Made by a program: the position numbers and the translations under genes
Shown: positions 9,055 to 46,935 of the stretch, piece after piece
How the letters are laid out: each line of letters starts with the position of its first letter
How positions within the stretch are numbered: the stretch's first letter is position 1
The notes under the pieces: model-generated
What the model saw: the letters and a program-made list of their open reading frames with translations, nothing else
Databases searched by the model: none
Told to the model about the DNA's origin: nothing
NCBI GenBank assembly: GCA_020851635.1
Contig: JADZCJ010000055.1
Location: 1 to 64,000 of the forward strand
Reading direction: 5' to 3'
DNA: 64,000 bases
Source: Anaerolineae bacterium
GTDB lineage: Bacteria > Chloroflexota > Anaerolineae > UBA4142 > SHND01

Positions 9055-9657
9055 TCAGGCGGCGTTCAAGACAACAGGCGATTGTCGCGGGCGCGCCGCC
9101 ACGACAAACTGTCTCAACGCGGTAGAAATTGCATGGGTTAAAATGAGGTGCGCATCTTCAACCTGCTCCATCGAATTGCTGGGGACGACAATGCAAAAAT
9201 CTGCAAGCCCTTTTAACTTGCCCCCATCAAAGCCCGACAACCCGATGGTCAGCGCCCCCTCCTGACGCGCGCAGCGAATCGCGTTGAGCACATTGCGCGA
9301 GTTACCGCTGCCGCTGATGCCGATAACAATGTCGAGCGGCTGGACATAATTTGCGAGTTGTGAGGCGAAAATATTCTCGTACGTCGAATCATTTGCCCAC
9401 GCCGTCATCAACGGGACATTGTCGGTCAGTGCGATAGCGCGCAAGCGCGGCAAGGACTCGGCAAGCGTCCCCTTGCAAAGGTCATTCGCCCAATGTGAGG
9501 CGGTTGCCGCGCTGCCTCCGTTCCCACAAAGATAGACCGTATGACGGTTCATGCGCGTGTCATGCAAGAGGTTGACGATCCGTTGAATATCGCCGGCAGA
9601 AATCTTGCCGAGAAGGGATTGGACCCCTGTCAGATAATCGGAAATATGGTTGGGCAT
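9055..9657 (-). CDS. SIS-domain sugar isomerase, GmhA-like
   Basis: A 200-residue SIS-domain protein with CGNGGSAATASHWANDL, the phospho-sugar loop of sedoheptulose-7-phosphate isomerases, plus GISGSGNSRNVLNA and GLSGFDGGKL, all typical of GmhA. That enzyme makes D-glycero-D-manno-heptose 7-phosphate, the substrate of HddA/HldE kinases, and a HddA-like kinase is encoded at 44081-45070. The ATG at 9655-9657 has an AGGTGA site at the right distance, so the longer upstream frame is not used. It is 13 bp downstream of the ParA-TPR gene. Confidence 0.8.
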   Translation of the reverse strand: MPNHISDYLTGVQSLLGKISAGDIQRIVNLLHDTRMNRHTVYLCGNGGSAATASHWANDLCKGTLAESLPRLRAIALTDNVPLMTAWANDSTYENIFASQLANYVQPLDIVIGISGSGNSRNVLNAIRCARQEGALTIGLSGFDGGKLKGLADFCIVVPSNSMEQVEDAHLILTHAISTALRQFVVAARPRQSPVVLNAA

Positions 9658-9670
9658 AGGTTCACCTGCG

Positions 9671-11368
9671 CTAGCGGATAATCGTAAATAGGAAAAAAGC
9701 CAAAAGCAAAATGCCCGCAATTGCCAGCAGAACCGAAATCAGGTGGAGCGGCTTGAATTCGAATCGCTCGACGGTGGGCTGCCAAAGCCAGCTATGGATT
9801 TCGCGCGCTTCAGCATTGTTGGGATTGAGCTTGAGAGCTTGTTGAACATACCACAGGGACTCGTCCGTATTCTCGCTCGTGCGCGCCAAGCCGATATATG
9901 CACGTTCGTTTTTGGGGTCCAATTCCAAAACTTGCTCGAACCGGGCGCGTGCCTGCGCTCGCATACCTTTATGCGACATACTTTCGCCATCGAGCACCAG
10001 CGTAAGAATCTGTGCTTGCAGCTGTTGCGTCGCAACCTCGTTCGACTGGAGTGATTGACTGTTTTCAGGGTTCAACTCGCGCGCACGCGCCAGCTCTTTT
10101 AACTTGTTTTGCAGGTTCTTGCTCGTTTGCGCTCTGCCCAGCCAGGCCTCTTCGTGGTCGGGATCGAGGACCGTGACACGCTCATAGGCGCGGTGCGCCT
10201 GGTCTGCAAGCCCACAAGAGCGCAGCAAGTGCCCAACTGCCATGAGCTCTGGAATATCTTGCGCGGTGCATTCTGCCAAACCAGCCGTCAAACCTTTCTC
10301 AAGCCCCTCTTGCACCTGGGTCGAATCCGGGACGAGCATATAGGCCTGCGCCAAACTCGAAACGCGCTCTGACCAGTCCGGCGCCGCTTGTGCTCTGCCA
10401 ATCCAGCCCTCTGGCATTTGAGGCGCCATGATGGTGGCTTTCTGAAACGCTGCGAACGCCGACGCGCGGTCGTTTGCCTGCAGTGCGGCAGTCCCCCGCC
10501 GTATCTCGGCAAATGGATCGTTGATGACCCGTTCAGAAATTCCGTGCTGCACTTCTCTCGCCAGCAGACGATATGCTTCAGCCGGAGGACTCTGGGGGGC
10601 ATAGCGCAAGACACTCTGCGAACGTTGTGCCGCTTCTTTGATGATCTCGGTCTGGTTCACCGTCGCCGTGAAAAAAGGCAGATCCATACCAAAGTTCTTT
10701 TTGACGTCAGCAATAATCTCGCGCCCGTGAAGCGGGTCATACATGGCAATGAAAATCCCCGCCAGCACCAGACTCGGATTCACTTTTTGACGAACTTCTT
10801 TGGCGATCTGGATGAACCAGCTCAAGGCGTGGTACGCGAGATAGTCCGCGGGAAAAGGAATGATCAACTCATCCGCCGCCGCCAGCGCGTTGCCGGTCAA
10901 AATGCCCGCATTTGCGGGGCAGTCGAGCAGGATATAGTCGTATTTGGCGCGTTCCGGTTCCAACACATTGTCGAGCGCGAGAATACGCAACTTGCCGTTC
11001 TGTAATTCGCGTTCGGTCTCGTACAAGTCGTGCGTTGCCGGGACCAGATTATAGTTTTCGCTTGTCTCTACGGTGACAGAATCAATGGGGGAAGATGAAA
11101 CCGAAAGCGCATCCGAAATGGATCGGCTGAGGTGACGATGTCCATAACCGACGGACAATGTCAGGGACGCTTGCGGGTCCAGATCAACCACCAACACCTT
11201 GCGCCCTTGCTCGGTCAAGGCAGCCGCCAGATTTGTCGTAGTTGTCGTTTTCCCAACTCCGCCTTTGACGTTTCCGATCGCGATGATGCGGGCAGCGCGC
11301 GGCAATTCCGCTTTTGGCATCATCCGGAACTGTACGGCAGAGGAAGTAGGCAGCAGAGATGTAATCAT
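9671..11368 (-). CDS. ParA/MinD-type ATPase fused to TPR repeats and a C-terminal membrane anchor
   Basis: 565 residues. At 30-280 lies a Soj/ParA ATPase domain with deviant Walker A KGGVGKTTTT (35-44), Walker A' VDLDPQAS (61-68) and Walker B YDYILLDCPAN. Residues of about 290-530 form a helical repeat region with TPR-like units, such as AYERVTVLDPDHEEAWLGRA and ARFEQVLELDPKNERAYIGLA. A single hydrophobic helix near 542-563 ends the chain. ParA ATPases position plasmids, chromosomes or protein complexes. Here, between a BY-kinase locus and a GmhA-like gene, I infer a membrane-tethered ATPase that positions or regulates the glycan machinery. I know of no characterised protein with this domain order. 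Confidence 0.8.
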   Translation of the reverse strand: MITSLLPTSSAVQFRMMPKAELPRAARIIAIGNVKGGVGKTTTTTNLAAALTEQGRKVLVVDLDPQASLTLSVGYGHRHLSRSISDALSVSSSPIDSVTVETSENYNLVPATHDLYETERELQNGKLRILALDNVLEPERAKYDYILLDCPANAGILTGNALAAADELIIPFPADYLAYHALSWFIQIAKEVRQKVNPSLVLAGIFIAMYDPLHGREIIADVKKNFGMDLPFFTATVNQTEIIKEAAQRSQSVLRYAPQSPPAEAYRLLAREVQHGISERVINDPFAEIRRGTAALQANDRASAFAAFQKATIMAPQMPEGWIGRAQAAPDWSERVSSLAQAYMLVPDSTQVQEGLEKGLTAGLAECTAQDIPELMAVGHLLRSCGLADQAHRAYERVTVLDPDHEEAWLGRAQTSKNLQNKLKELARARELNPENSQSLQSNEVATQQLQAQILTLVLDGESMSHKGMRAQARARFEQVLELDPKNERAYIGLARTSENTDESLWYVQQALKLNPNNAEAREIHSWLWQPTVERFEFKPLHLISVLLAIAGILLLAFFLFTIIR

Positions 11369-19101: not shown

Positions 19102-19941
19102 TCAGGGTTCGCGGGAACTCGGAACGCCGGGCAGCGGCGAAACGGTGGGCAATCGCAGGGGAGGCAAGCCCGACACTACAAGGGCAGGTTGTTCCTCCCG
19201 CAGACGCTGATCCATTTCGGCTATTTCCTCATACGTGCCGAGATCAACATAGTTGCTGCCGGGCATACGCACGCCGCGAAAACAGAGCCCGGCCTGGATT
19301 GCGCTGTTCATGACTTGGGCAAAGTCTCGAATATTGTGTTTTTGAAGACACGTGCGCAGATGTTCGGTGAACGACGCTCGCCAGACAATGCAGCCCCACA
19401 TTTCAGTCAAGTCTGTCGTGCGCGGCTTGTCAACGATTTCCAGCACGCGATCATTCGCGTCAAGTCGCACCATGCCAAACTTTTCTGGACGCGTGGTCGA
19501 AAAGAGCGCCAACGCCACATCGTCCTCACACTGCATCTCGCTATACACACAACGAAATACATCTGTGGGAAGCATGATAGTATCTGCCATCCCGAAAAAG
19601 ACGGTCTTGCCGCGCGTGAGATGATAAGCCGAGTCGAGGGCATGGGCGAGACCGGGTGAGGTAGAAGAGCCATTCTCATTGCTCGGTTCTTGCACGACAT
19701 AACTGATATCAATGCCAAACCGATGCCCATCCCCAAAATAGCCCAGCAGTTGATGCTTGGTCTCGTTAATCACAAAGACCATATGCGGCACCTGGGCAAT
19801 GGTCAGGTTCTCTACCACGTACTGCGCCACAGGGCTGTACCGGTTGTCACGAATCAGCGGGTAAAGTTCTTTGGGATATGGTAACCCAAGTCTCAAACCC
19901 TTGCCCGCCGCAGGCACAAGCCCGATCAGCTCTTGATTCAT
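19102..19941 (-). CDS. Sugar-1-phosphate nucleotidyltransferase (RmlA-like fold)
   Basis: A 279-residue protein that opens with LIGLVPAAGKGLRLGLPYPKEL, a variant of the GGxGTRLxPxTxxxPK nucleotide-binding loop. It continues with FFGMADTIM, KFGMVRLDANDRVLEIVDKP and a C-terminal GSNYVDLGTYEEI. These match glucose-1-phosphate thymidylyl/uridylyl/guanylyl transferases. The enzyme makes an NDP-sugar for the locus; nucleotide and sugar are not determined. A purine-rich GGGGGAG site precedes the ATG at 19939-19941. It starts 2 bp after the polymerase gene ends, so the two are probably co-transcribed. Confidence 0.8.
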   Translation of the reverse strand: MNQELIGLVPAAGKGLRLGLPYPKELYPLIRDNRYSPVAQYVVENLTIAQVPHMVFVINETKHQLLGYFGDGHRFGIDISYVVQEPSNENGSSTSPGLAHALDSAYHLTRGKTVFFGMADTIMLPTDVFRCVYSEMQCEDDVALALFSTTRPEKFGMVRLDANDRVLEIVDKPRTTDLTEMWGCIVWRASFTEHLRTCLQKHNIRDFAQVMNSAIQAGLCFRGVRMPGSNYVDLGTYEEIAEMDQRLREEQPALVVSGLPPLRLPTVSPLPGVPSSREP

Positions 19942-34527: not shown

Positions 34528-36093
34528 ATGCTTGACACCGCAAGACGATGGATCGCCTGCGTGTTAGCGGTCCTTGTCATGAGCATTCTCTGGCATGGCA
34601 TGACCGATCCGGTACGGCGCAGCACCGCCTATGCTTTTGTCCATACCCAGGCAACTCTTTCTCACCGGGTCTATTTGCCTTTGATGGTCAATTCTGCGTC
34701 GGACACGATTCCTACTCAAACGACGCCACCCTCACCCACACCATCCCTTACGCCGTCACCCTCGCCGAGCGCAACTCGCACGATGACGCCTCTGCCTCCG
34801 ACAGGACAGGTGCGGCGACTCTATGCGCCAAATTTTCAGAACGGGGAAATCAAATATCCCGAGACCGCCGTCCTTTGGCTCGGCAAAATCAGCTCGCAAC
34901 AAAACTATGCCGATGTTCGCGTCGGCTATAACAATCAAAAATTATTTGTTTCGCTCAATATCGTTGACCGTACGCTCCGTTACAACCCGGCTGCCGGCTC
35001 CGGTCCTCTCACCGCGTGGGACGCCGCCACACTCTATCTTGATCTTGATGGCAATGTTGGGTCTGCGCCGGGAACAAATGCATTCCGCCTAGATGGGCAG
35101 CTGAACTGGTGGGAGCCGCGTGCGGACTATCAGGCAGCGTTTCGCGGCAGCGGCGCGAGTTGGGTCCCTGTCCCGGTCTCGTTTTCGACCGTTACGAGTT
35201 GGCGCGGGAATGCGCCGAATGACGACCTGGATGATGCGGGCTGGCGAATAGATTACGAGATTCCGTTCAGCAGTCTCGGGCTTGCGGGTCCACCACCGAA
35301 AGGCGCCGTTTGGGGGTTCGGGGTGGCAGTTTACGACCGTGATGCGACAACCGCATCGGCGGCCCCGCCCGAAACCTGGCCCGAAACTTTATCTACAACA
35401 GCACCCTCGAGCTGGGGACAATTAGCTTTTGGCTTGCCAACATACGAAACACCACAGGTCAGCGGGACGGGAAACGTCAAAATTCGACACGGGCTAAATG
35501 GTTCGGTCGTCCCTGACGCGGCGGTCGGAGGAACGTTCGGAAACCTTTGCGGCGGGACTAACGCCTCGTGGGACGAGTGGGGCAACCAGAACTATGCCGG
35601 AGCGCCGCGTTTCAACATTCAAAATCAAGCTGACGTTGCGGATTGGTGGTGCTTTTCAAAATACTTTGTGACGTTCCCGCTTGACAAAATTCCCCCGGGC
35701 AAAGTAATCGTTTCCGCAAACCTGACCTTGCACGAATTTGGTAATTCCGGACAGCCAAACCTGGCATTGCCTTCTCTGATCCAGGTGTTTACTCTGGACA
35801 AAGACTGGAACGAAGCGACGCTGACGTGGAATAATGCCCCACTCCCAACGGAAAACACGAGTCAAGCGTGGGTCAATCCGATTGTAACGTTTCCCGGCTG
35901 GCCCGGTGTGCCGTGGAGTTGGGATGTCACACGCGCCGTCGCCAACGCGTATGCCGATGGGATTCCCTTACGTCTTGTGCTCTACGAGGCAGACGCAGCG
36001 CTGCACAGCGGCAAATACTTTGTCGGCTCGGACGAGCCGGATTGGAATGCGGCGGGCAGACCGACCCTGGATATTGTCTGGGGAAACCCCTGA
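34528..36093 (+). CDS. Secreted protein with CBM9-like and DNRLRE-like domains
   Basis: 521 residues: signal peptide (about 1-38), the motif HRVYLPLMVN (about 46-55), a Thr/Pro/Ser linker to about 90, then two beta domains. The first (YADVRVGYNNQKLFVSLNIVDRT, WDAATLYLDLDG) looks like a CBM9/DOMON-type sugar-binding domain. The second (KYFVTFPLDKIPPGKVIVSANLTLHEFG, WNEATLTWNNAP, GRPTLDIVW) looks like a DNRLRE domain, a surface adhesion fold. No enzyme motif is seen. It is on the plus strand, opposite to the surrounding locus, and is followed by another secreted protein with the same N-terminal layout. It probably binds the surface glycan. Confidence 0.75.
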   Translation: MLDTARRWIACVLAVLVMSILWHGMTDPVRRSTAYAFVHTQATLSHRVYLPLMVNSASDTIPTQTTPPSPTPSLTPSPSPSATRTMTPLPPTGQVRRLYAPNFQNGEIKYPETAVLWLGKISSQQNYADVRVGYNNQKLFVSLNIVDRTLRYNPAAGSGPLTAWDAATLYLDLDGNVGSAPGTNAFRLDGQLNWWEPRADYQAAFRGSGASWVPVPVSFSTVTSWRGNAPNDDLDDAGWRIDYEIPFSSLGLAGPPPKGAVWGFGVAVYDRDATTASAAPPETWPETLSTTAPSSWGQLAFGLPTYETPQVSGTGNVKIRHGLNGSVVPDAAVGGTFGNLCGGTNASWDEWGNQNYAGAPRFNIQNQADVADWWCFSKYFVTFPLDKIPPGKVIVSANLTLHEFGNSGQPNLALPSLIQVFTLDKDWNEATLTWNNAPLPTENTSQAWVNPIVTFPGWPGVPWSWDVTRAVANAYADGIPLRLVLYEADAALHSGKYFVGSDEPDWNAAGRPTLDIVWGNP

Positions 36094-36201: not shown

Positions 36202-39153
36202 ATGACCAAATCTCACCGATACAATTATTTCGCTGCCTTTTTCTGGCTTGCAATTCCTGTTCTCCTTGTCATAGGAATCGGACTGGGGCAGGCACAAGTC
36301 CAGGCAGCTCCTCCCAATGCAGTTACCGCCACACGACAAATCTATTTGCCGCTGATCAATCGTCAACTAGACTCTCGAGCCGCGACGCCAACCCCTACGC
36401 TCACCGAGACTCCGAACTCTGTTCCTACGGCAACCTCTACTCGAACCGCTACGCCGAATACACCACCGACAGCGCCTCCCCCGTCAGGTAACGGATGGAC
36501 AATGTTGGCGGCAAACCCACAGCGGACTTCATGGACCCCGGAAGAGGTGCGCGGCGAACTCCAAGTCGAGTGGTATCATCCGATCGAGCCATATATCCCC
36601 TACAAAATTCAACCCATTGCCGCCAACGGAAAAATCTATGTCGCAACTGCGCGCGGGCTGTTTGCTTTTGATGCTTCAAACGGCGCACTCTTGTGGGTAT
36701 ATGGCACAGAAATGCCGCTGGGACACTCGCCAACCATTGCGACCGTGAACGGCAAATCGGTTGCGTATGTCGGCGGCATGGATCATCGCGTTCATGCGGT
36801 TGACGCGAATTCCGGTCAAGCCCTGACTGGCTATACACCGTTCGAAGCTGGTTCCGGGTACGACACCAACCCGCTGGTGATCCAAGACTCGTTTACATCC
36901 AATAAACCCATCATTCTGATAGGCAATCGAGATGGATTCTTTTACGCTCTCGATGCCGTTACGGGCGCCAAGCTCTGGTCGTACCAGACACAAGGTCCAA
37001 TTTCGTACTCGGCTGCCTATAAAGACGGGCACGTCTATTTTGCTTCGAATGACAACAAAGCGTATGCGTTGAACGTGGCGAACGGCTCGCTCGTCTGGAA
37101 AAAAGGTGGCTTTCCCGGTTCCGGTTTCTATTCGTATTGGCCCGTCATCTATACCCACAAAGCGACAAGCAAAGATTATGTAATCTTTAACAGCGGAGAA
37201 AACTACCGGCAAACAGAACAGGCAGAACCTCCCTCGCAGCTGGAGACCCGCGCTCTAAACGCATACAACCTGCCGGGAGGGACACTTCCCAGAACCAATC
37301 CACCAGTTCCCGGCGACTGGGCATCGGGAACAGCGACATTGGATGGAAGCTCGCTCACCAACTATTTTGCTTACAATTCCCGGAAACGGGTTTCATTTGT
37401 CCTCGACGCCGCAACGGGTCAAGAGTTTACGTTTGCCGATCCGTCGGGCGGTGGTACAACCTTTGCGCCTTTTGGACAATCCGGCATCACCGGCTCGGGG
37501 TCAAAATTCCCGCCGATTATCAACAGGATGGATGGCGTGTACTATCAGCAGACCGCATACAGTGACTTTAATATGTGGGTGAGCAGGGGTTCCGCCGTGG
37601 GTTGGAAATTTGGGACCCAACATCTCAGCCTGGTTTCGGACAGAACATTTGCGGGCGATGAACCAACTGCGTATGCATCGGGTGGGCGTCTCATCTATTG
37701 GGCATTATGCTGTGACCGCGCGGCAGGCGCGTTTGATGTTTCAATTCCGTACGGTCAACCCAATCGGGGCTGGTTCTATTTCGATCAGGGCGGCTCGCTC
37801 TTGCCCAACAAGGCTCCCGGATACGACCAGTACATGATTCCCGGCAGTGTTTATGATTGGGATATGTATGGCGGAGTCAACGGAGTTTATGGCAAGCATG
37901 GCAGTAATCAATCTCCGCCGATCCCTTATCAGGGCAAAGTGTATATGCTGAGGGGGAATACTCTGCTCGCGTTTAGCAATACAGCAACTGCTATCAAGTT
38001 ACCACTCGCCACTGCACCTGCCGCTCAACCCGCGCAGATTTCTAAAACAACCGCTCAACTGAGGCAAGCGCTGGAAACCCAGGTTCAAAAAATGCTTGCC
38101 GTCGGACCACTTCGCCCCGGCTACATGTCGGTTGGAATTCTGGATGTGTATGGTCAAGGCGGTTGGGGCAGCGACGAGAGAGGTTTTGGGGAAATCTTTG
38201 ATTATTTTCAGAACCCCGCCGATACGGTTTATACGCTGCTGCTCGCGTATCCACATCTCTCAGCCGGGACGCAAGCACAAGTCAAAACCTATCTGCAAGA
38301 CCATTACGGTCCCGGCAAGACATACGACTTGACGAGAATTGTTCACACTGGGTGGGGCAATGGCGCCGCGCGCGAAGTGTTTTCGATTCCTCCAGAGGAT
38401 TTTGCGATTTTTGGGACGCCCTACAAACCGCCGCTGAACCCCTCTGCCCAACCGATCTGTGGCGGATGTGGATATTGGCAGAACTTTCCGCCGTTTTCGT
38501 TCTATGCGGCGTGGAAGTATGCCCAGATCGTTGGGAACAACGACCCCAATACCGCCAAAGCGCTGTTCAACGCCATGAGCTCAAGAATCGAAGCGCCCAT
38601 GGCAGACAATTATCTCATCCACAAGCCGTATTTTATCAATCTCTATGCCGCGGGCTATTTGGGATATTTGAATCTGAAACAGTTGGCGGGCTTGGGTGGT
38701 GACCCAACGGTTCAGGGCTACTATGATCATATGCTTGCGCTGCGGGTAAATGCGTTCGCACAAGACACGCCCTACGTACCCGACAACACCTGGATCCCGG
38801 ACTGTCTGGGCGTTTGTGCCAACTATCAACGCACCCTAAGCGTAGCCCGTAACTTTATGTTTCTGACGCCGGAAATTGCAGACTATATGCGACAGCAGAT
38901 TGGGAACAGTGTGCAGAGTGCAGTGACGGATTATCAACATGCCGCTCCGTACTGGTTCGTTTCCAAGTTCGACAATACAACGGGCGAGGGCACCATTCAA
39001 CCGCTATACGATTATCCCGCGCTGTTTCAAGCCAAAGCATGGATTCTAAAACAACCCTACAACGAACTTGTAAAATGGCTGGATGTGCCTGCCTTTGATC
39101 GAGGCGACCTCTTTTACATTCAAAATCTGGTCGCCGCCCTCGACGCACAATGA
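36202..39153 (+). CDS. Secreted PQQ-like beta-propeller protein with a C-terminal domain of unknown function
   Basis: 983 residues: signal peptide, then IYLPLINRQ, a Thr/Pro linker (about 55-95), then a propeller of PQQ-type repeats (GKIYVATARGLFAFDASNG, DGFFYALDAVTGAKLWSY, HVYFASNDNKAYALNVANG). It lacks the residues of true PQQ dehydrogenases, so the repeats are probably structural. The C-terminal 350 residues (from about 615) are helical, with a conserved-looking CGGCGYWQNFPPFSF and repeated Tyr/Trp-rich segments, resembling an alpha/alpha-barrel of the polysaccharide lyase or glycosidase kind. I cannot name the family. It ends 30 bp from the convergent radical SAM gene. Confidence 0.7.
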   Translation: MTKSHRYNYFAAFFWLAIPVLLVIGIGLGQAQVQAAPPNAVTATRQIYLPLINRQLDSRAATPTPTLTETPNSVPTATSTRTATPNTPPTAPPPSGNGWTMLAANPQRTSWTPEEVRGELQVEWYHPIEPYIPYKIQPIAANGKIYVATARGLFAFDASNGALLWVYGTEMPLGHSPTIATVNGKSVAYVGGMDHRVHAVDANSGQALTGYTPFEAGSGYDTNPLVIQDSFTSNKPIILIGNRDGFFYALDAVTGAKLWSYQTQGPISYSAAYKDGHVYFASNDNKAYALNVANGSLVWKKGGFPGSGFYSYWPVIYTHKATSKDYVIFNSGENYRQTEQAEPPSQLETRALNAYNLPGGTLPRTNPPVPGDWASGTATLDGSSLTNYFAYNSRKRVSFVLDAATGQEFTFADPSGGGTTFAPFGQSGITGSGSKFPPIINRMDGVYYQQTAYSDFNMWVSRGSAVGWKFGTQHLSLVSDRTFAGDEPTAYASGGRLIYWALCCDRAAGAFDVSIPYGQPNRGWFYFDQGGSLLPNKAPGYDQYMIPGSVYDWDMYGGVNGVYGKHGSNQSPPIPYQGKVYMLRGNTLLAFSNTATAIKLPLATAPAAQPAQISKTTAQLRQALETQVQKMLAVGPLRPGYMSVGILDVYGQGGWGSDERGFGEIFDYFQNPADTVYTLLLAYPHLSAGTQAQVKTYLQDHYGPGKTYDLTRIVHTGWGNGAAREVFSIPPEDFAIFGTPYKPPLNPSAQPICGGCGYWQNFPPFSFYAAWKYAQIVGNNDPNTAKALFNAMSSRIEAPMADNYLIHKPYFINLYAAGYLGYLNLKQLAGLGGDPTVQGYYDHMLALRVNAFAQDTPYVPDNTWIPDCLGVCANYQRTLSVARNFMFLTPEIADYMRQQIGNSVQSAVTDYQHAAPYWFVSKFDNTTGEGTIQPLYDYPALFQAKAWILKQPYNELVKWLDVPAFDRGDLFYIQNLVAALDAQ

Positions 39154-39183: not shown

Positions 39184-40881
39184 CTATTTGACAGCCGAGT
39201 TCACAGGTACGCCGGGAGCTTGCCGCGGCGAAACATTAACGTGGCTGTCAGCCATCGGCGTTTCCCCCATCCAATTTATATGCTGGCGGGCGATGTCGAA
39301 TGCTGACTTGATCCCTTCCCAGCTGTTGAACCCTTTGACAAAGGTCAAGATTGGACCGGGGCGGAATGCCCATTCACGAAACGCGCGCTTTTGCCAATAT
39401 TCGAGCCGCTCGGCGGGCAAATGCGGATAGTCCAGGACCGTCGAGCGGTCCATATCCACCTCTTCCCAACGCGTGCCGGGGCGGAACCATCCGTTCTTGA
39501 CCACCTCAAAGAAAAAGGGTGTTCCGGGATACGGTGCGGCGATATGGAAAAGGGCAATATCCAGAGGCAGCTTTTTCGAGAAACTGATGGTCTCTTGAAT
39601 GGTCTCTTCGGTTTCTCCCGGAAGCCCGATGATGAAATAACCCCAATTCTTGATCCCCGCATCGTGCGACCACTGTAACGCCCGCGCGGCTTTGGCAGGG
39701 TCCGCGCCTTTGCGCGCGTGCTTGAGAATCTCGAAATTGCCCGACTCGATGCCCCAGGCAATCATCCAACAACCCGCTTTGCCCATCAGCGCGAGCATTT
39801 CCTCGTCCACATAATCCACGCGACTGTTGCAGGTCCACTTGATATTCAGTTTTTCCTGAATCATCAATTCGCACAAGCCGACGACCTGATCGCGCGCCAG
39901 CGTAAACAAGTCGGCATACATGTGAATGTAATCAATTCCCAGCCCCTTCAAGACCTTGAGCTCGGCGACGATATTTTCGGGCGAGCGCAGGCGCAAACTC
40001 CATTGATAGCTCACATGCTTGATGCAATACGTGCAGCCCGCGCTGCAACCGCGGCTCGTGACGATGAACGTATACGGCGTCTTCATCATCGGCGCGCGAT
40101 ACTTGTCCAGCGGCAAAAGATGATGCAGCGGAATCGGCAGGTCATCGAGATTGGGAATAAAGGGACGGTCTTGATTGACCACGATCTCGCTGCCCCTGCG
40201 CCACGCCAACCCCTTGATATGAGAGAGGTCTCCCTCTGTTTCGGACACAAAACGTGTGGGAATTTCTGACAGCGTCGTTTCGAGCAATCGGATTGTCTGT
40301 GGGTCGGTGGGCTGCTTTTCTTGAAACGCGTCGATCAGCTCGCGAAGGGTCACATCCGGTTCGCCGCGCAGGATAAAATCGAGCGAGGGGAAAGGCGTCA
40401 TCGTTTCATAGGTCATGGGCGTGACATGGGTGCCGAACGCCATGGTTTTGGCGCCCACTGCCTTGGCAAGAAAGACCCCGTACATGTCATTTTGGAGCGT
40501 GGGGGCAGTGACTTGGGTGATGTAAAAACGGGGCATTTTGACGCGCAGCACCTGTTCAAATTGGGGCCACGTCATGCGCTCGGCAATTGCATCCACGACT
40601 TCTACCTTGTAATCGGCGGCAAGCAACGCTGCCATCTGGGCAAGCGAAACCTGGGGCCAAATCATGTTCTCGCGTGATTTGCGCCCGACGCGATGCTGAC
40701 TGCGGATCCAGATGCCGCCGTCGGGCGATGGTGGATTTACGAGTAGGACGTCCACAGCGGTCGAGGGCCGCTCACGCGGCTGGATATTCTGACGGACCGC
40801 CGCACCGGCATCGGGAAAACGCGGCGGCGGCACGATTTGACGCGTCCGCGTTCCAAGATTCATAGATTTTGTTTCTGCCAT
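39184..40881 (-). CDS. B12-binding-domain radical SAM protein (BchE/HpnP class)
   Basis: 565 residues. An N-terminal Rossmann region (about 43-190: VDVLLVNPPSPDG, VTAPTLQNDMYGVFLAK) has the cobalamin-binding-domain fold. The radical SAM core has Cys279-Cys283-Cys286 (GCSAGCTYC), then MYADLF, GIESGNFEILKHARKG and YFIIGLPGETEETI, typical of the class. Members methylate or rearrange unactivated carbons in lipids, tetrapyrroles and sugars. The ATG at 40879-40881 has an AGGGG site. Its place after a GT2 gene in the glycan locus suggests a lipid-carrier or sugar modification, but the substrate is unknown. Confidence 0.85.
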   Translation of the reverse strand: MAETKSMNLGTRTRQIVPPPRFPDAGAAVRQNIQPRERPSTAVDVLLVNPPSPDGGIWIRSQHRVGRKSRENMIWPQVSLAQMAALLAADYKVEVVDAIAERMTWPQFEQVLRVKMPRFYITQVTAPTLQNDMYGVFLAKAVGAKTMAFGTHVTPMTYETMTPFPSLDFILRGEPDVTLRELIDAFQEKQPTDPQTIRLLETTLSEIPTRFVSETEGDLSHIKGLAWRRGSEIVVNQDRPFIPNLDDLPIPLHHLLPLDKYRAPMMKTPYTFIVTSRGCSAGCTYCIKHVSYQWSLRLRSPENIVAELKVLKGLGIDYIHMYADLFTLARDQVVGLCELMIQEKLNIKWTCNSRVDYVDEEMLALMGKAGCWMIAWGIESGNFEILKHARKGADPAKAARALQWSHDAGIKNWGYFIIGLPGETEETIQETISFSKKLPLDIALFHIAAPYPGTPFFFEVVKNGWFRPGTRWEEVDMDRSTVLDYPHLPAERLEYWQKRAFREWAFRPGPILTFVKGFNSWEGIKSAFDIARQHINWMGETPMADSHVNVSPRQAPGVPVNSAVK

Positions 40882-40925
40882 CAAGTCAGCCCCTTGTCTA
40901 CACTCTCATTCAACGGATGCAATAT

Positions 40926-42179
40926 CTAGATTTGGACTTGAACACTCGGTCCGCCTTCAGACGGCACGCGAATATTTTCCGGTTCTGCATCGCTCAGGTC
41001 TCGCCGCGTCTCATTCTCACGCATCGCCAACCCTTCCAATACCCGCATGACGATCCACGCTGTCCCCAATTGAATACCGATAATGACGAGCATGGCGCCT
41101 ACGAGTTGGTAAAGCCAAAGCCGCGTGATCTCCCAGCCATTGAGACTCAGTACAAGCGCCCCAACACTCAATCCAATGCCTGCCGCCGCGCTCACGCACC
41201 CCATCCACCCAAAATGATGATCGAGCGACGGGTCAAAAATCGGCTTGCCAAAGAGTCCCTGGCGCACCGGGCGCTTGTGAAACAACGCCACCAGATAATT
41301 GAACATCGTCCCGAGCAAAAACAAGCTCAGCCCGACGACCGTCAGAACCGTCGCGAGGAACACCGCATAAACCTGTCCCGCGTTCAGCGCCGTGACTCCG
41401 CTCAGCCGGAGCGCAACGATATAGAGACCAATCAAAGCCGCGACACAGAGAATCGCCAGCGAAGTCAGTCCCAGGATTCTCACAGGGTTATATCCGAGCG
41501 CCGTCCAGACAATCGCGTTCGTAAAACGATACCCATCGCGCACCACGGACAATTTGGAACGTCCCATTCGCTCCGAATAGGCGATAGGCACTTCGACAAT
41601 TTTCAGATTCTCATGAATCGCCCGGGTGCTCATCGCCGGGGTAAACTCCAAGCCATCAGGGAGCGGGTACAGGCGTTCGAGCGCATCCCGGCGCAAGACA
41701 CGCATGCCGCTGGCGGAATCCCGTACCGGAACATTGCCAATCAAACTGAGCAGCGACGCAAAAGCGAAATTTCCGATGCGGCGCGTAACAGGCATTTGGC
41801 TGGCTGCCCCGCTCATCCGCGAGCCGACGACCAGGTCTGCTTTTTCCTGCATGGCAACGGCGCACAATTCCGGAAGACTCTCGGGCGGATACGTCCCGTC
41901 CGCATCCAGAAACGCCAAATAGTCTCCGGTCGCGTGACGAAAGCCCGTCTTGATGGCTGCGCCATACCCGCGATTCTTGAGATGTTGAATCAGACGCACA
42001 TCACGATACTTGCCCACAATCGCGCAGGTCCGGTCACGAGAACCATCATCAACGACCAGAAATTCCAGGCCAATGTTGAGGTTTTCCAGCGCGGGGCGGA
42101 CATTCAGAACACGCTGGATAACCTCTTCAATTCCGCTTTCCTCGTTAAAAGCGGGTATCACAACAGCAAGAGTAGTCAT
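40926..42179 (-). CDS. GT2 glycosyltransferase with multi-helix membrane domain
   Basis: 417 residues. GT-A domain: LAVVIPAFNEESGIE, VVDDGSRDRT, NRGYGAAIKTG and LDADGTYPPESLPEL, then DSASGMRVLRR. From about 225 to 385 come five or six hydrophobic segments, more than in DPM1-type enzymes, giving a GtrB-like or larger membrane module. It probably makes a polyprenyl-phosphate sugar. The ATG at 42177-42179 follows a GGAG site. A very long open frame exists on the opposite strand, but it is compositional: its protein is rich in Arg, His and Gln and resembles nothing. Confidence 0.85.
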   Translation of the reverse strand: MTTLAVVIPAFNEESGIEEVIQRVLNVRPALENLNIGLEFLVVDDGSRDRTCAIVGKYRDVRLIQHLKNRGYGAAIKTGFRHATGDYLAFLDADGTYPPESLPELCAVAMQEKADLVVGSRMSGAASQMPVTRRIGNFAFASLLSLIGNVPVRDSASGMRVLRRDALERLYPLPDGLEFTPAMSTRAIHENLKIVEVPIAYSERMGRSKLSVVRDGYRFTNAIVWTALGYNPVRILGLTSLAILCVAALIGLYIVALRLSGVTALNAGQVYAVFLATVLTVVGLSLFLLGTMFNYLVALFHKRPVRQGLFGKPIFDPSLDHHFGWMGCVSAAAGIGLSVGALVLSLNGWEITRLWLYQLVGAMLVIIGIQLGTAWIVMRVLEGLAMRENETRRDLSDAEPENIRVPSEGGPSVQVQI

Positions 42180-42206
42180 AGACTCCAAAACCTCGGGCTC
42201 GGGTGT

Positions 42207-43214
42207 TTAACAAGCTTCAGCACATGCTTCAAGAATCACTTTTTGCGTTGCGCGAACCATATCTCGGGGATCGAAATTCTCTTCGACAAATTTGCGCCCG
42301 TTGCGCCCCATTTCGATGGCAAGGTCAGGATCGTCTTTTAGTTTGCGGATGGCGCACGCCATTGCGTCAACATCGTGGGGTGGAACCAATATTCCCGTTA
42401 CACCATCAACAACATAGTCAGCCATGCCCTTGGTTTTTGTTGCAATGATCGCTTTCCCTGCCGCAGCAGATTCCAGCGCGGTGGTCGCGCCGGCGTTGTA
42501 CTGGGTGGTAACCACCAGCGGGATTACCACAAAGAGCGCCTGCTCGTACCGGGCGCCAAGTTCGTCGAGTCCGACGGGCGGTTCGATGCTGACCCAGGCT
42601 GGCGGTTTCAACATATTCTCCCGGTACAAGACCGGGTACCGGGTCGACGCGAAAATCTCGGTACGACAATCGGGGAGCTTGCGCAAAGCGAATATCAGCG
42701 TCTCATAATCGCGTTTTGATACGCCAACACTCAAAATCGGTCCTTGCCTGACAGGATCGCCAGGGCGAAATTGTTCAATCGGCGCGGCCAGAAAACGGAA
42801 CAATTTCGGCAAAGAGACATGCAATTCATTGTTTAGAACAAAGCGATCAGCGTCGCACAAATATCCAACACGCTTCCACTTTGCATGGGCTCCTGTCGAG
42901 TAAAACAAGAGTTTTTTTCTTGGAGAGGCAATGTGATGAACAACAGAGACAAGTGGTTTCTTGAGATCAAGAAGAGCAAGTGGGATTCCTACACGTTCAG
43001 AACCCGCCAGCACCAGATCAAACTTTGGGCTGAGAGCCTTTGCCCAAAGCGCAAGCGATAGGTCTAGACGGAGTAGATTTTCAATCTTTCTCAAGTATCT
43101 TGGGAAACCAGCGTAAGCTTGATAGTCAATGGTTATGTCCCACAATTGAGTTCGACGATAACCTGAAGGTGCAAAACTGGTATCAACATGCAATACTCGG
43201 GGATAATGCGCCAT
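42207..43214 (-). CDS. GT4 glycosyltransferase
   Basis: 335 residues. N-terminal YPRVLHVDTSFAPSGYRRTQLWD and the C-terminal donor half GPILSVGVSKRDYETLIFALR, TTQYNAGATTALESAAAGKAIIATKT, then VDGVTGILVPPHDVDAM and FDPRDM place it among GT4 enzymes, although it is short. The middle part between the two Rossmann domains is reduced. A GGAG site precedes the ATG at 43212-43214. It lies between the acyltransferase and GT2 genes in the first block of the locus. Confidence 0.8.
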   Translation of the reverse strand: MAHYPRVLHVDTSFAPSGYRRTQLWDITIDYQAYAGFPRYLRKIENLLRLDLSLALWAKALSPKFDLVLAGSERVGIPLALLDLKKPLVSVVHHIASPRKKLLFYSTGAHAKWKRVGYLCDADRFVLNNELHVSLPKLFRFLAAPIEQFRPGDPVRQGPILSVGVSKRDYETLIFALRKLPDCRTEIFASTRYPVLYRENMLKPPAWVSIEPPVGLDELGARYEQALFVVIPLVVTTQYNAGATTALESAAAGKAIIATKTKGMADYVVDGVTGILVPPHDVDAMACAIRKLKDDPDLAIEMGRNGRKFVEENFDPRDMVRATQKVILEACAEAC

Positions 43215-43243
43215 AAATTTCTCCGATGATCACAGGCGACTGG

Positions 43244-44038
43244 CTATCCTCCACCCATATACACAGTCGAGCCGGGGACCGTCCTATTTTCGTTCGTTAC
43301 CTCCTTTACCACTTTGGCGGGCACCCCGGCAGCAATCGAGTGGGGCGGCACATCCCTGGTGACGACTGCACCCGCAGCAATCACAGCGCCTTTGCCCACG
43401 CGCACCCCATCCAGAATGATCGCGCCCGCGCCAATCCAAACGTTATCTTCGACCACAATCCCCTCTGCCGTAATCCCCTGCTGCGCGATGGGCTTGTCAC
43501 AATCGCTGTAGACATGGTTTACAGCCACCATCTGGACAAACGGCGAGGTGTACACGTTATCTCCAATCGTGATGCCCCCCTGTCCGCGCAAGACGTTGAA
43601 TTCGCTGATCAGGCAGTTCTTGCCAATCGTAATGTGCGCCTGCGGGAGATCGCGGAAATTAAAAACATGCAGCTCAGCGTGATGCATCACATACGTGTTA
43701 TCGCCAATCTGTATACCGCGTGGCATGGCATGGAGATAGACCGATTCGTCAAGATATACATTGCGACCCAAACGAATGTGGTCTGTGTAGCGCAAGCGGA
43801 CATGGTTCTCGATGGCTGCAACCCCATCCATTTTCAGGATGGCGCGATATACGACGGCGCGCAATCCCACACCCACAATGGTGGGAATCCAGCCGAACAA
43901 AGCCAACACACTTTGTTCGAGACAATACCGCCCCAAACCGGATGCCTGCCGATTCAGATAAAGGCGCATACGGCCGGTAGTGCGCAATTGTTCAGTTTGG
44001 GGATTCTGAGAGCGAGTCGCCGGAGAAGCGAGTTCCAT
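43244..44038 (-). CDS. Left-handed beta-helix acyltransferase (hexapeptide repeat)
   Basis: 264 residues. From about residue 85 on, hexapeptide repeats run ([60 protein letters not shown]). This is the signature of maltose/galactoside acetyltransferase-like enzymes that use acetyl-CoA. A His in VAVNHVYSD is a good candidate for the catalytic base. The first 80 residues are basic with one hydrophobic stretch (about 45-65), so it may sit on the membrane. It probably O-acetylates a repeat-unit sugar. Confidence 0.8.
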
Positions 44039-44080: not shown

Positions 44081-45070
44081 TTACCTGTTCTCTTCAACAA
44101 AAACGATCTTGCTGCCTTGAGGTTCAAAGCGAAAATGAATGGGCCGCAGTTCAGGCAGCGCCGCGATAATGTCGGCGTGCCGTTCGACCGGAGCATAAAA
44201 CAAGAGGAACCCACCACCACCCGCGCCCAAGAGCTTGCCGCCAAGCGCCCCATTGCAGCGCGCGCGTTCATACCAAAGATTGATTTTCGCGTTGGTGATG
44301 GTACTCGCCAGACGCTGTTTTTCCGTCCAGCCCTGATGCAAGATTTCCCCAAAACAATCCAGGGTGCCCAGATGAAGCGCCTCGCGCATTTGCGCCGCCA
44401 ATTCGGTCATGATCCGAAGACTCGATTGTGTTGTCTGATTGTCGTGGGTGTTTTGCTGCTGTTCGGACAAGATGTCATTGGCAGACCGGGTCAGCCCCGT
44501 ATACATCATCAAAAGTCGGCTTTCAAGTTTCCGTTTCGTTTCGGTGGCACAGATAATCGGGTCCGCATAGACCGAATTATCGGGGTTGAAGCGAAAATAT
44601 TGCATGTTGCCGTACGCGGCGATGTATTGGTCCTGTTTGCCGATCGGTTTCTTGCAGCGTTCGATTTCAATCTCACATGCTTCGCGCGCCAACCGTTCGG
44701 GTTCTGCGTGATGTCCTTTGTAGGCATACAGTGCGTTCAGCAATCCGACCGTATAAGAGCTCGACGAGCCAAGCCCGGTGCCCTGCGAGGGAATATCCGA
44801 AATCGAGGTAATCTCGATGCCGCTTTCCACGCCGACCAGTTTGAGCGCCTCTCGAATCAATTCATGTTTCAGGTCGGCGATACCGTCAACCATCTCGGTC
44901 ACGGAATAACTGGCGCGAATCCGATGATCGAATTTCCGATTCACCGTAATATAGATGTATTTATTGATGGCTGTGCTCACCACGCCACCGGGTTCGCGCA
45001 AATAAAATGCCGACAGGTCGCTTCCGCCGCCGACAAAACTAATCCGAAGTGGAGTACGTGAGACAATCAT
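44081..45070 (-). CDS. hddA: GHMP-family heptose 7-phosphate kinase, HddA-like
   Basis: 329 residues. The start MIVSRTPLRISFVGGGSDLSAFY and the ATP loop GTGLGSSSSYTVGLLNAL, with CKKPIGKQDQYIAAYG and LLGAGGGGFLLFY, match D-glycero-alpha-D-manno-heptose 7-phosphate kinase and related fucose/GHMP kinases. HddA makes heptose 1,7-bisphosphate from the GmhA product; a GmhA-like gene lies at 9055-9657. No HddC or GmhB is recognisable here, although the nucleotidyltransferase at 19102 could serve. This is the first gene of the glycan locus, downstream of a 340-bp leader, and it has no clear ribosome binding site. Confidence 0.8.
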   Translation of the reverse strand: MIVSRTPLRISFVGGGSDLSAFYLREPGGVVSTAINKYIYITVNRKFDHRIRASYSVTEMVDGIADLKHELIREALKLVGVESGIEITSISDIPSQGTGLGSSSSYTVGLLNALYAYKGHHAEPERLAREACEIEIERCKKPIGKQDQYIAAYGNMQYFRFNPDNSVYADPIICATETKRKLESRLLMMYTGLTRSANDILSEQQQNTHDNQTTQSSLRIMTELAAQMREALHLGTLDCFGEILHQGWTEKQRLASTITNAKINLWYERARCNGALGGKLLGAGGGGFLLFYAPVERHADIIAALPELRPIHFRFEPQGSKIVFVEENR

Positions 45071-45218
45071 TGGGTAACAGAGAAACCCGTTTCGGGGTTG
45101 GGAGATATGTCGCCAGATTCAGAACAGGGTGTGAAAAAATTCACAAAGAACGCCCGGCGACAGGCACGCTCCGCAGTCCTTTAACCCGCTGCTGGATTAA
45201 AGTTCGTCACGGCGCAAA

Positions 45219-45254
45219 AAGGTCAACAGCCCTGCACGCAAGGCAATTGACCTT
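45219..45254 (-). terminator. Terminator-like hairpin in the glycan-locus leader
   Basis: AAGGTCAA (45219-45226) pairs perfectly with TTGACCTT (45247-45254), and an inner GCC/GGC pair shortens the loop. On the minus strand the stem ends in a run of five T, though the stem is AT-rich. On the plus strand it is followed by GGGCTTTTT. It lies between repeat copy B and the first gene of the locus. Confidence 0.4.
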
Positions 45255-45269
45255 GGGCTTTTTACTTAT

Positions 45270-45378
45270 GATGGCGCGCCAACATGAGACTGCGGCGATG
45301 CGGTTCAGAGCATCGGGCATCGAGTTTGATTACTCGCGTGCCAGCGCTTGACTCGGCAATTTCATTCAGTTGGCGCAC
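45270..45378. repeat. Palindromic structured repeat, copy B
   Basis: Same element as 123-238 and 2511-2601. The outer stem GCGCCAAC (45276-45283) pairs with GTTGGCGC (45369-45376), whereas copy A uses GCAACAAC/GTTGTTGC, so both arms changed together. The inner hairpin CGATGC (45296-45301)/GCATCG (45310-45315) and the hairpin CGAGT (45321-45325)/ACTCG (45332-45336) are also kept with different loops. The block CCAGCGCTTGACTCGGCAAT (45341-45360) is nearly identical to copy A. Confidence 0.8.
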
Positions 45379-45410
45379 AAACAAGGTCAAGCAAAATCAG
45401 TCAAAACAAA

Positions 45411-45911
45411 TTATTGCTTTTGAATCAAATTGCGTTCAATGGTGAGCGGCGTTTTCGTTTGAAGAAAGTTTATCAAGAGCCGCACGCGATCACCGGATGA
45501 GAGTCGAGTATCAAAGATTGCCTCATAGCCATCCAAAACTCCCGAAGTAATCTTGACACGGTCGCCTTGCCGCAAGAGATTTCCCGCCCGGTCCCTGACA
45601 CTGTTTTCCAACCGACACACCTGGGTTTGAATACCATTAATCACGGATGGATCAACTTGAATAGGTTTGTCATCGCAGGTAATGACATAGCTGACGCCGG
45701 GAAGATAGTTGAGACTGGACAAACTTGTTGCTTGCCAGTCTACACAGCAAAACATGTAACACGGAAAGTAGGGACGAAGTTTTTTGTCAATGTTGACCTT
45801 GTCCACCGGCTGCCACAGCGGCAGATAGCATTTGATATCCCGCTCGACAAGCTGCTCGCGCACAATAAACTCGTAATTCGGCTTGGTCTTTAGAACATAC
45901 CAACCTTCCAT
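45411..45911 (-). CDS. Specialised NusG paralogue (RfaH/LoaP/UpxY-type antiterminator)
   Basis: 166 residues. The NGN domain begins MEGWYVLKTKPNYEFIVREQL and continues with CYLPLWQPV, RPYFPCYMFCCVD and LPGVSYVITCDDKP. The C-terminal KOW domain is LRQGDRVKITSGVLDGYEAIF. It lacks the extra features of a housekeeping NusG and matches the capsule-locus paralogues, which ride on RNA polymerase and suppress pausing and termination over long operons. The ATG at 45909-45911 is preferred to an upstream frame that overlaps the receiver-GAF gene. It lies directly before the glycan locus on the same strand. Confidence 0.85.
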   Translation of the reverse strand: MEGWYVLKTKPNYEFIVREQLVERDIKCYLPLWQPVDKVNIDKKLRPYFPCYMFCCVDWQATSLSSLNYLPGVSYVITCDDKPIQVDPSVINGIQTQVCRLENSVRDRAGNLLRQGDRVKITSGVLDGYEAIFDTRLSSGDRVRLLINFLQTKTPLTIERNLIQKQ

Positions 45912-45915
45912 AACG

Positions 45916-46935
45916 CTATTCTCCGTTCGGTGGGCGAGCTTGCTCGAGCGACGCCAATTTTTCTGAAATCGAGACTTTATCCAGCGCCATTGCCATGACC
46001 TGTGCCAATGCGACAAGTATCTCTAGCTGGATGGGTTCCTGGCTTGGCTCTATCAAGTGACTGCTCAAAGTGGCGAGGACGCCATAGACAGACCTTTGTC
46101 CGATGAGCGGGACAAGGGCGCAGGACTTGAGGTCAAAGTCTTCCGGCAGTTCCCATTTGTCGAGCTTGTCCGGATAAGAACGCGTCAGCACAATGGGCTG
46201 AAGCGTTTCGATACACTCACGCGCCGCTGCCTCGACAAACTCGGACTGACTCTCGTTGAGCGTTGTGGGCAATAAAAGAGTGCTGTGAGAGCCGACCCGG
46301 ACCAGGTCGGTTGATCTTGGGCTTGTCCCATACATGAGCGCCAGGTCATAATGGACAATTGCCCGGAGATGCGCGAGCGTCTTGTCATAGATCTGGTCCG
46401 GACTGGTGGCGCAAGTGAGCGCAGAGAACAGGTTGTGGAGCCCAACGAGCCGTGTGCGGAGCTGTTTGATTTCACTCTTTGCACTGCGCAATTCAAGCAT
46501 CTGTTGAATCAGATTGCACAACAGCTGCGTGTCGAGGGGCTTGAGCAAATACGCCGATGCACCCTGCCCCAGGGCATTGATCGCCTGATGCAAGGAACGG
46601 GACGACGTAGTCATGATCGCCGAGACCCTCGGATTCATTTTTCGGATGAATGTCCAGGCCTCTGTGCCAAGCATGTCCGGCAGTGAGATCTCGATCAGAA
46701 CCAAATCATAGAGCGGACCCTCCAACAAGCGGAGGGCATCCACAAAACATTCGGCAACCTCGACATGCCAGCCGCGTTCGCCAAACGCCTGAATGCACTC
46801 GCGCATCCCGCGAATATCCGGATCAATGACCAGAATATTTGCGGACGGAATAGCTCTGAGGGCATCGAGACCGATTCTGTCCGGTGTCATGACCGCACTA
46901 ATTTGATTGTGTTGAATGGGTGCGCTGTAGAGCAT
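45916..46935 (-). CDS. Receiver-GAF protein with Glu at the phosphorylation site
   Basis: 339 residues. A receiver domain spans about 31-150 (ANILVIDPD, LVLIEISLPDMLG, IMTTSS, AYLLKPLD) and a GAF domain about 165-325. There is no DNA-binding or output enzyme domain. The usual phospho-acceptor Asp is Glu82, and the acidic pocket is Asp38-Pro39-Asp40. The Thr/Ser (about 109-111) and Lys132 positions are kept. Glu at this place often mimics the phosphorylated state, so signalling may come through the GAF ligand instead. The stop is 4 bp before the NusG-paralogue ATG, so the two should be co-translated and may act together. Confidence 0.8.
   Translation of the reverse strand: MLYSAPIQHNQISAVMTPDRIGLDALRAIPSANILVIDPDIRGMRECIQAFGERGWHVEVAECFVDALRLLEGPLYDLVLIEISLPDMLGTEAWTFIRKMNPRVSAIMTTSSRSLHQAINALGQGASAYLLKPLDTQLLCNLIQQMLELRSAKSEIKQLRTRLVGLHNLFSALTCATSPDQIYDKTLAHLRAIVHYDLALMYGTSPRSTDLVRVGSHSTLLLPTTLNESQSEFVEAAARECIETLQPIVLTRSYPDKLDKWELPEDFDLKSCALVPLIGQRSVYGVLATLSSHLIEPSQEPIQLEILVALAQVMAMALDKVSISEKLASLEQARPPNGE

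Follow-up and report, generated by a model that had tools for sequence, protein, structure and literature searches.

The systems closest to the one described here are built on specialised NusG paralogues. In Bacteroides, UpxY proteins are encoded at the head of capsule polysaccharide loci, and their reported targets are leaders that lie upstream of upxY; for UpxY we know of no comparable element. RfaH of E. coli serves surface-polysaccharide operons and binds a non-template DNA hairpin closed by the C3:G8 pair, with G4 to A7 in the loop, from which T6 is flipped out into a pocket made up chiefly of H20, R23, Q24 and R73 (PMC5995543). LoaP, known from the dfn leader of Bacillus velezensis, is recruited by an RNA hairpin in the leader (PMC12691694). 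A group of RfaH homologues with a monomorphic beta-CTD, which are encoded beside their target operon and lack the ops-contact residues, is reported to be independent of ops (PMC13015549). The literature searched, mostly outside subscription journals, returned no report of an ops or JUMPstart element in Chloroflexi.

The window analysed here is a 64,000-nt stretch of an Anaerolineae genome. The initial annotation had recognised in it a NusG gene of the LoaP/RfaH/UpxY type, and profile searches confirmed this assignment. The gene at 45411-45911 on the minus strand encodes a protein of 166 residues that matches Pfam NusG at 52.6 bits. Among the NCBIfam models, RfaH scored best (TIGR01955 and NF006534, 91.6 and 66.9 bits against cut-offs of 144.5 and 124), followed by UpxY (NF033644, 63 against 100), LoaP (NF033641, 35.8 against 125) and housekeeping NusG (TIGR00922, 34.5 against 135.7); every score was below the curated cut-off, including that of the RfaH equivalog. 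Grouping with housekeeping NusG, which the initial annotation had named as the outcome that would speak against its proposal, was not observed, as the housekeeping proteins formed a 100/100 clade and the window protein was placed outside it, among the paralogues. The one further NusG of the genome is a separate housekeeping copy. By profile and phylogeny, the product of 45411-45911 is thus classified as a specialised NusG. The paralogues of five congeners formed a 99/97 clade that did not include the window protein. Its branch is long and its composition unusual, so it may have been separately acquired or may be fast-evolving. A related-locus search with the window returned one distant relative. 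The protein of L063, an Anaerolineales bacterium, nests among proteins of the same class in the NusG tree.

AlphaFold2 predicted a beta-barrel KOW domain for the window paralogue (pLDDT 92.6) and likewise for the paralogue of locus L035. The models therefore do not indicate RfaH-like autoinhibition for these two proteins, although fold switching is still compatible with the prediction. Of the ops-contact residues of RfaH, K10 is kept in the window protein and H20, R23, Q24 and R73 are all replaced. Upstream on the same strand, at a distance of 4 nt, lies a gene for a response regulator with receiver and GAF domains (45916-46935; Pfam Response_reg, 58.6 bits). Because the gap is so short, the two genes are probably co-transcribed as one operon.

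The 340 nt 3' of the NusG paralogue gene are unusually structured (z -3.87, with 0 of 100 shuffles as stable). As had been described, they contain a repeat called copy B and a terminator-like hairpin (45215-45254, minus strand), which has a T5 tail. The initial annotation had noticed no ops-like sequence, but an ops-like element was located at 45161-45202 on the minus strand. The order in the leader is NusG paralogue, copy B, terminator-like hairpin and ops-like element. No promoter for the leader was identified.

The first gene past the leader encodes an HddA-like GHMP kinase (44081-45070, minus strand; Pfam GHMP_kinases_N and _C; NCBIfam HddA, 143.7 bits, below the cut-off). According to the open reading frames and domain search, it is followed on the same strand (39184-44038) by genes for a hexapeptide transferase (43244-44038), two glycosyltransferases and a radical SAM protein, which completes a first co-directional unit of five genes (45070-39184). 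Two convincing plus-strand genes, with CBM96 and PQQ-type beta-propeller domains, occupy 34528-36093 and 36202-39153 and face the first unit. The locus is therefore not the single 45-kb transcription unit of about 30 genes that had been assumed; a second large minus-strand block extends from 34431 to 257. The HddA-like kinase gene shares the locus with SIS-domain (GmhA-like) and nucleotidyltransferase genes (9055-9720 and 19102-19941), and their co-occurrence suggests that the polysaccharide encoded here contains an activated D-glycero-D-manno-heptose sugar.

The leaders 3' of NusG-paralogue genes were compared in 30 relatives. A hairpin followed after about 3 nt by GGCGGAGC-NYGCC recurs in these leaders and is doubled at some loci. 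The 7-mer shared by most leaders was GCGGAGC. It is present in 17 of the 30, whereas local frequencies predict 1.5 and the opposite strand gave 1; the most reached by any of 200 random sets drawn from these loci was 11, and in the 350 nt upstream of the genes the count never exceeded 6. The exact core is missing from the other 13 leaders. Hairpins upstream of the core are stabler than those at random positions (p = 6e-4). A covariance model built from eight sequences (R2) found further copies in relatives. In an alignment of 38 copies, pairing is kept in 94.6% of stem cells, a figure inflated because the alignment was fitted to the model, although the diversity of the stems is evident from the sequences themselves. 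Six of the eight pairs are changed on both sides, and the covariation score was reached in 0 of 500 shuffles and was lost when the helix was slid. Stem sequences vary widely, whereas the single-stranded GCGGAGC core is nearly invariant; in the relative L062, for example, the element reads CCGGTAGCGGAACGTGCTGCCGGAAG-GGCGGAGCGTGCC. When 400 genomes of the phylum were searched with model R3, 11 of the 29 loci listed (8 genera) had a NusG paralogue within 1.5 kb, against about 0.03 expected by a rough estimate that assumes one paralogue per 4 Mb. Many weaker matches fell inside coding regions and are attributed to chance. Rfam gave no matches in the window and none credible in six loci carrying the element.

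In the window, the element reads CTTTAATCC-AGCAGC-GGGTTAAAG-GACT-GCGGAGCGTGCCTG on the minus strand from 45202 to 45161, with the hairpin at 45179-45202, in the same place as the covarying stem of the relatives, and the ops-like core GCGGAGCGTGCCTG at 45161-45174, which was identified by leader comparison and by pattern and model searches. The resemblance to RfaH and ops/JUMPstart lies in a NusG paralogue associated with surface-polysaccharide genes and in a cis-element that precedes long operons on the transcribed strand and consists of a hairpin and then GGCGG(T)AGCGTG. The hairpin stands just 5' of the core in the window and the relatives as it does in E. coli, where the waaQ leader (CAGGTAGCTGTTGAGCCTGG-GGCGGTAGCGTGC) and the wza leader share with the relatives the layout of a hairpin plus GGCGGTAGCGTG. 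The two cores differ by the recognised T, which is deleted here (GC-GGA-GC versus GC-GGTA-GC in E. coli). Instead of the canonical ops core GGCGGTAGCNTG the window has TGCGGAGCGTGC, with the T missing and the first G replaced, and GCGGTAGC is present in 1 of the 30 leaders of the relatives. Searching with model R3 missed the E. coli JUMPstart, whose additional T and different stem make this unsurprising. Unlike RfaH, the window paralogue adjoins its target, is predicted to have a beta-barrel CTD and has other residues in place of those of the T6 pocket. Since the protein falls below the RfaH cut-off and has four contact residues replaced, and the leader lacks the canonical ops core, we filed the system as a variant of the RfaH-ops/JUMPstart kind and not as a member. 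The beta-barrel prediction, the position beside the target operon and the missing ops-contact residues are shared with the monomorphic RfaH homologues, but in the present case relatives carry a conserved element along with the gene.

On balance we favour the reading that a JUMPstart/ops-like element in the leader recruits the adjacent NusG paralogue, which would act by RfaH-like processive antitermination with a triloop variant of ops. RNA polymerase entering the leader would transcribe the hairpin and then pause in GCGGAGCGTGCCT, the predicted pause site being GCGGAGCGT. The exposed non-template strand could form a 2-bp GC-[GGA]-GC mini-hairpin with a GNA triloop, the counterpart of GC-[GGTA]-GC in E. 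coli, and the middle G of the GGA triloop in GGCGGAGCG would occupy the pocket of the paralogue. Replacement of H20, R23, Q24 and R73 is what would be expected if the factor reads a loop that lacks the flipped T. For GNA triloops, PMC6479982 cites Yoshizawa 1997 as describing a class of DNA mini-hairpins of very high stability. When the core was folded as DNA, no triloop hairpin appeared, with a parameter set that yields no stable hairpin for such short loops. After recognising the mini-hairpin, the paralogue would displace housekeeping NusG and remain on the polymerase, which we infer would thereby resist pausing and termination across the downstream polysaccharide genes. The factor would act on its own locus in the window genome and, in relatives, probably also on polysaccharide operons elsewhere. 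A wider version, which we put forward only tentatively and hold to be somewhat doubtful, is that NusG paralogues with an always-open beta-barrel CTD are recruited sequence-specifically by a GC-GGA-GC non-template DNA hairpin, without a flipped T or a fold switch, and act in cis and in trans on a regulon of polysaccharide genes throughout the phylum.

The conserved and covarying hairpin would also suit a LoaP-like factor that binds the RNA hairpin at 45179-45202 itself, with GCGGAGC serving only as a pause or as part of the RNA site. With LoaP the locus shares a NusG paralogue, a leader hairpin and a leader terminator, and recruitment by leader RNA has a precedent there (PMC12691694). We regard this variant as unlikely: the stems are highly variable next to a near-invariant single-stranded core, LoaP uses a UNCG-type hairpin and the loop in the window is AGCAGC, and the score for the LoaP model is far below its cut-off. 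The window also differs from the LoaP system in that the terminator precedes the element. As a first choice, the LoaP-type RNA-hairpin analogy of the initial annotation is not supported.

In another reading, the terminator (45215-45254) is just the end of the nusG operon, the polysaccharide genes are separately controlled and GCGGAGC in the window is a chance match or a decayed relic. The strong terminator-like hairpin right after nusG is what this reading predicts, and the window copy scores weakly (12.9 bits, E 3.5 in its own genome) because its stem departs from the consensus and T stands in place of G ahead of the core. Matches to the 13-nt pattern GCGGAGCNYNCCT number nine in the genome, not above the reversed control; the other eight are in open reading frames, however, and the window copy is the sole intergenic one, in the expected place and on the expected strand, where about 3e-4 chance matches are expected per 340-nt leader. 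Its hairpin lies directly 5' of the core, as in the relatives. We therefore consider this explanation quite unlikely and take the window copy as a genuine but diverged element. Terminator-like hairpins between nusG and the element were found in the window and, by eye, in the congener L056. Because this hairpin precedes the element, loading there comes too late to suppress it; polymerases that have leaked through may then be made processive, an undetected promoter may lie in between, or the window copy may be a relic.

Copy B (45273-45380, minus strand) had been proposed as a candidate recognition RNA. Repeat alignment and searches of the genome and relatives indicate that it is a divergent copy of a MITE-like dispersed palindrome and falls outside the proposed mechanism. 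At least 41 matches to it, mostly intergenic, are spread over the 5.8-Mb genome. The 98 relatives with the NusG system, among them five congeners, have none, and the palindrome is species-restricted. Aligned copies are 90-105 nt long, bounded by the terminal inverted repeats CTAGTGCAACAACATGA...TCATGTTGTTGCACTAG, and vary in the centre; no open reading frame runs over the repeat in 26 of 28 copies checked, and a T5 tract 60-150 nt 3' of it is present in 4 and missing in 24. The ends of copy B are altered in concert (GTGCGCCAAC / GTTGGCGCGC) and still pair, which could reflect structural constraint, but strand-switch repair of palindromes yields the same pattern. That copy B, which folds and sits between nusG and the terminator with its ends still paired, is the RNA by which a LoaP-like factor suppresses the leader terminator was rejected as highly improbable, given its dispersal, its absence from the relatives, the MITE-typical inverted repeats and the mostly missing T5 tracts. 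An attC/integron reading of the repeat was also discarded, as no cassette arrays were seen. Other copies in the window lie at 137-229 and 2504-2596 (further copies, L002-L030). A second repeat (..GTTCATAGTTAC..CTCTCCGACAACCTG) adjoins some copies. Several copies lie less than 200 nt from contig ends (both ends of C55, and C24, C70, C131 and C5), so the repeat probably breaks the assembly.

Of the processive antitermination originally proposed, the specialised NusG and a leader class with a conserved recruitment-like element stand; the route through copy B and the extension to the whole 45-kb locus do not. Since leaders with this element form a widespread class behind NusG-paralogue genes, to which the window leader belongs, RfaH-type processive antitermination is the likely role of the paralogue. 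In relatives, further strong copies lie in front of genes for ABC-2 polysaccharide exporters, sugar epimerases or a priming glycosyltransferase, or of the NusG paralogue gene itself; these products were named from translations rather than by profile search. Homologues of the hexapeptide-transferase gene of the window adjoin the element in L151, L156, L060, L041 and L047. In several genomes, polysaccharide-gene copies are on contigs other than that of the paralogue, suggesting that the regulon probably includes trans targets. Two hairpin-plus-GCGGAGC copies follow nusG in the leaders of L049 (at 72 and 134 nt), L054 (68 and 120 nt) and L052 (153 and 668 nt) and may be tandem landing sites. The element is upstream, not downstream, of the paralogue in L146, L147 and L150, which belong to one genus of another family of the phylum, and in L103 of genome G001, an arrangement that suggests autoregulation. 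In the same genome, a fragment matching only the C-terminal 48 or so residues of a NusG paralogue (L105; contig C222, 43586-43859) stands just before an element copy and is possibly a relic in which the element has outlived the gene.

UpxY resembles the present system in that its gene, too, stands at the head of a polysaccharide locus and codes for a NusG paralogue; for the paralogue family described here, in what are probably Chloroflexota genomes, a concrete cis-element can now be named. The DNA-hairpin model is testable, and the changes in the recognition pocket match it. The system would offer an independent test case for transcription factors that read the shape of non-template DNA, and the element may serve as a regulon predictor for surface polysaccharides in this bacterial group. 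Since the hairpin-plus-GCGGAGC signal recurs in relatives and resembles a shortened form of the signal that loads RfaH in E. coli, the group probably drives its long polysaccharide operons by an RfaH-like system of its own.
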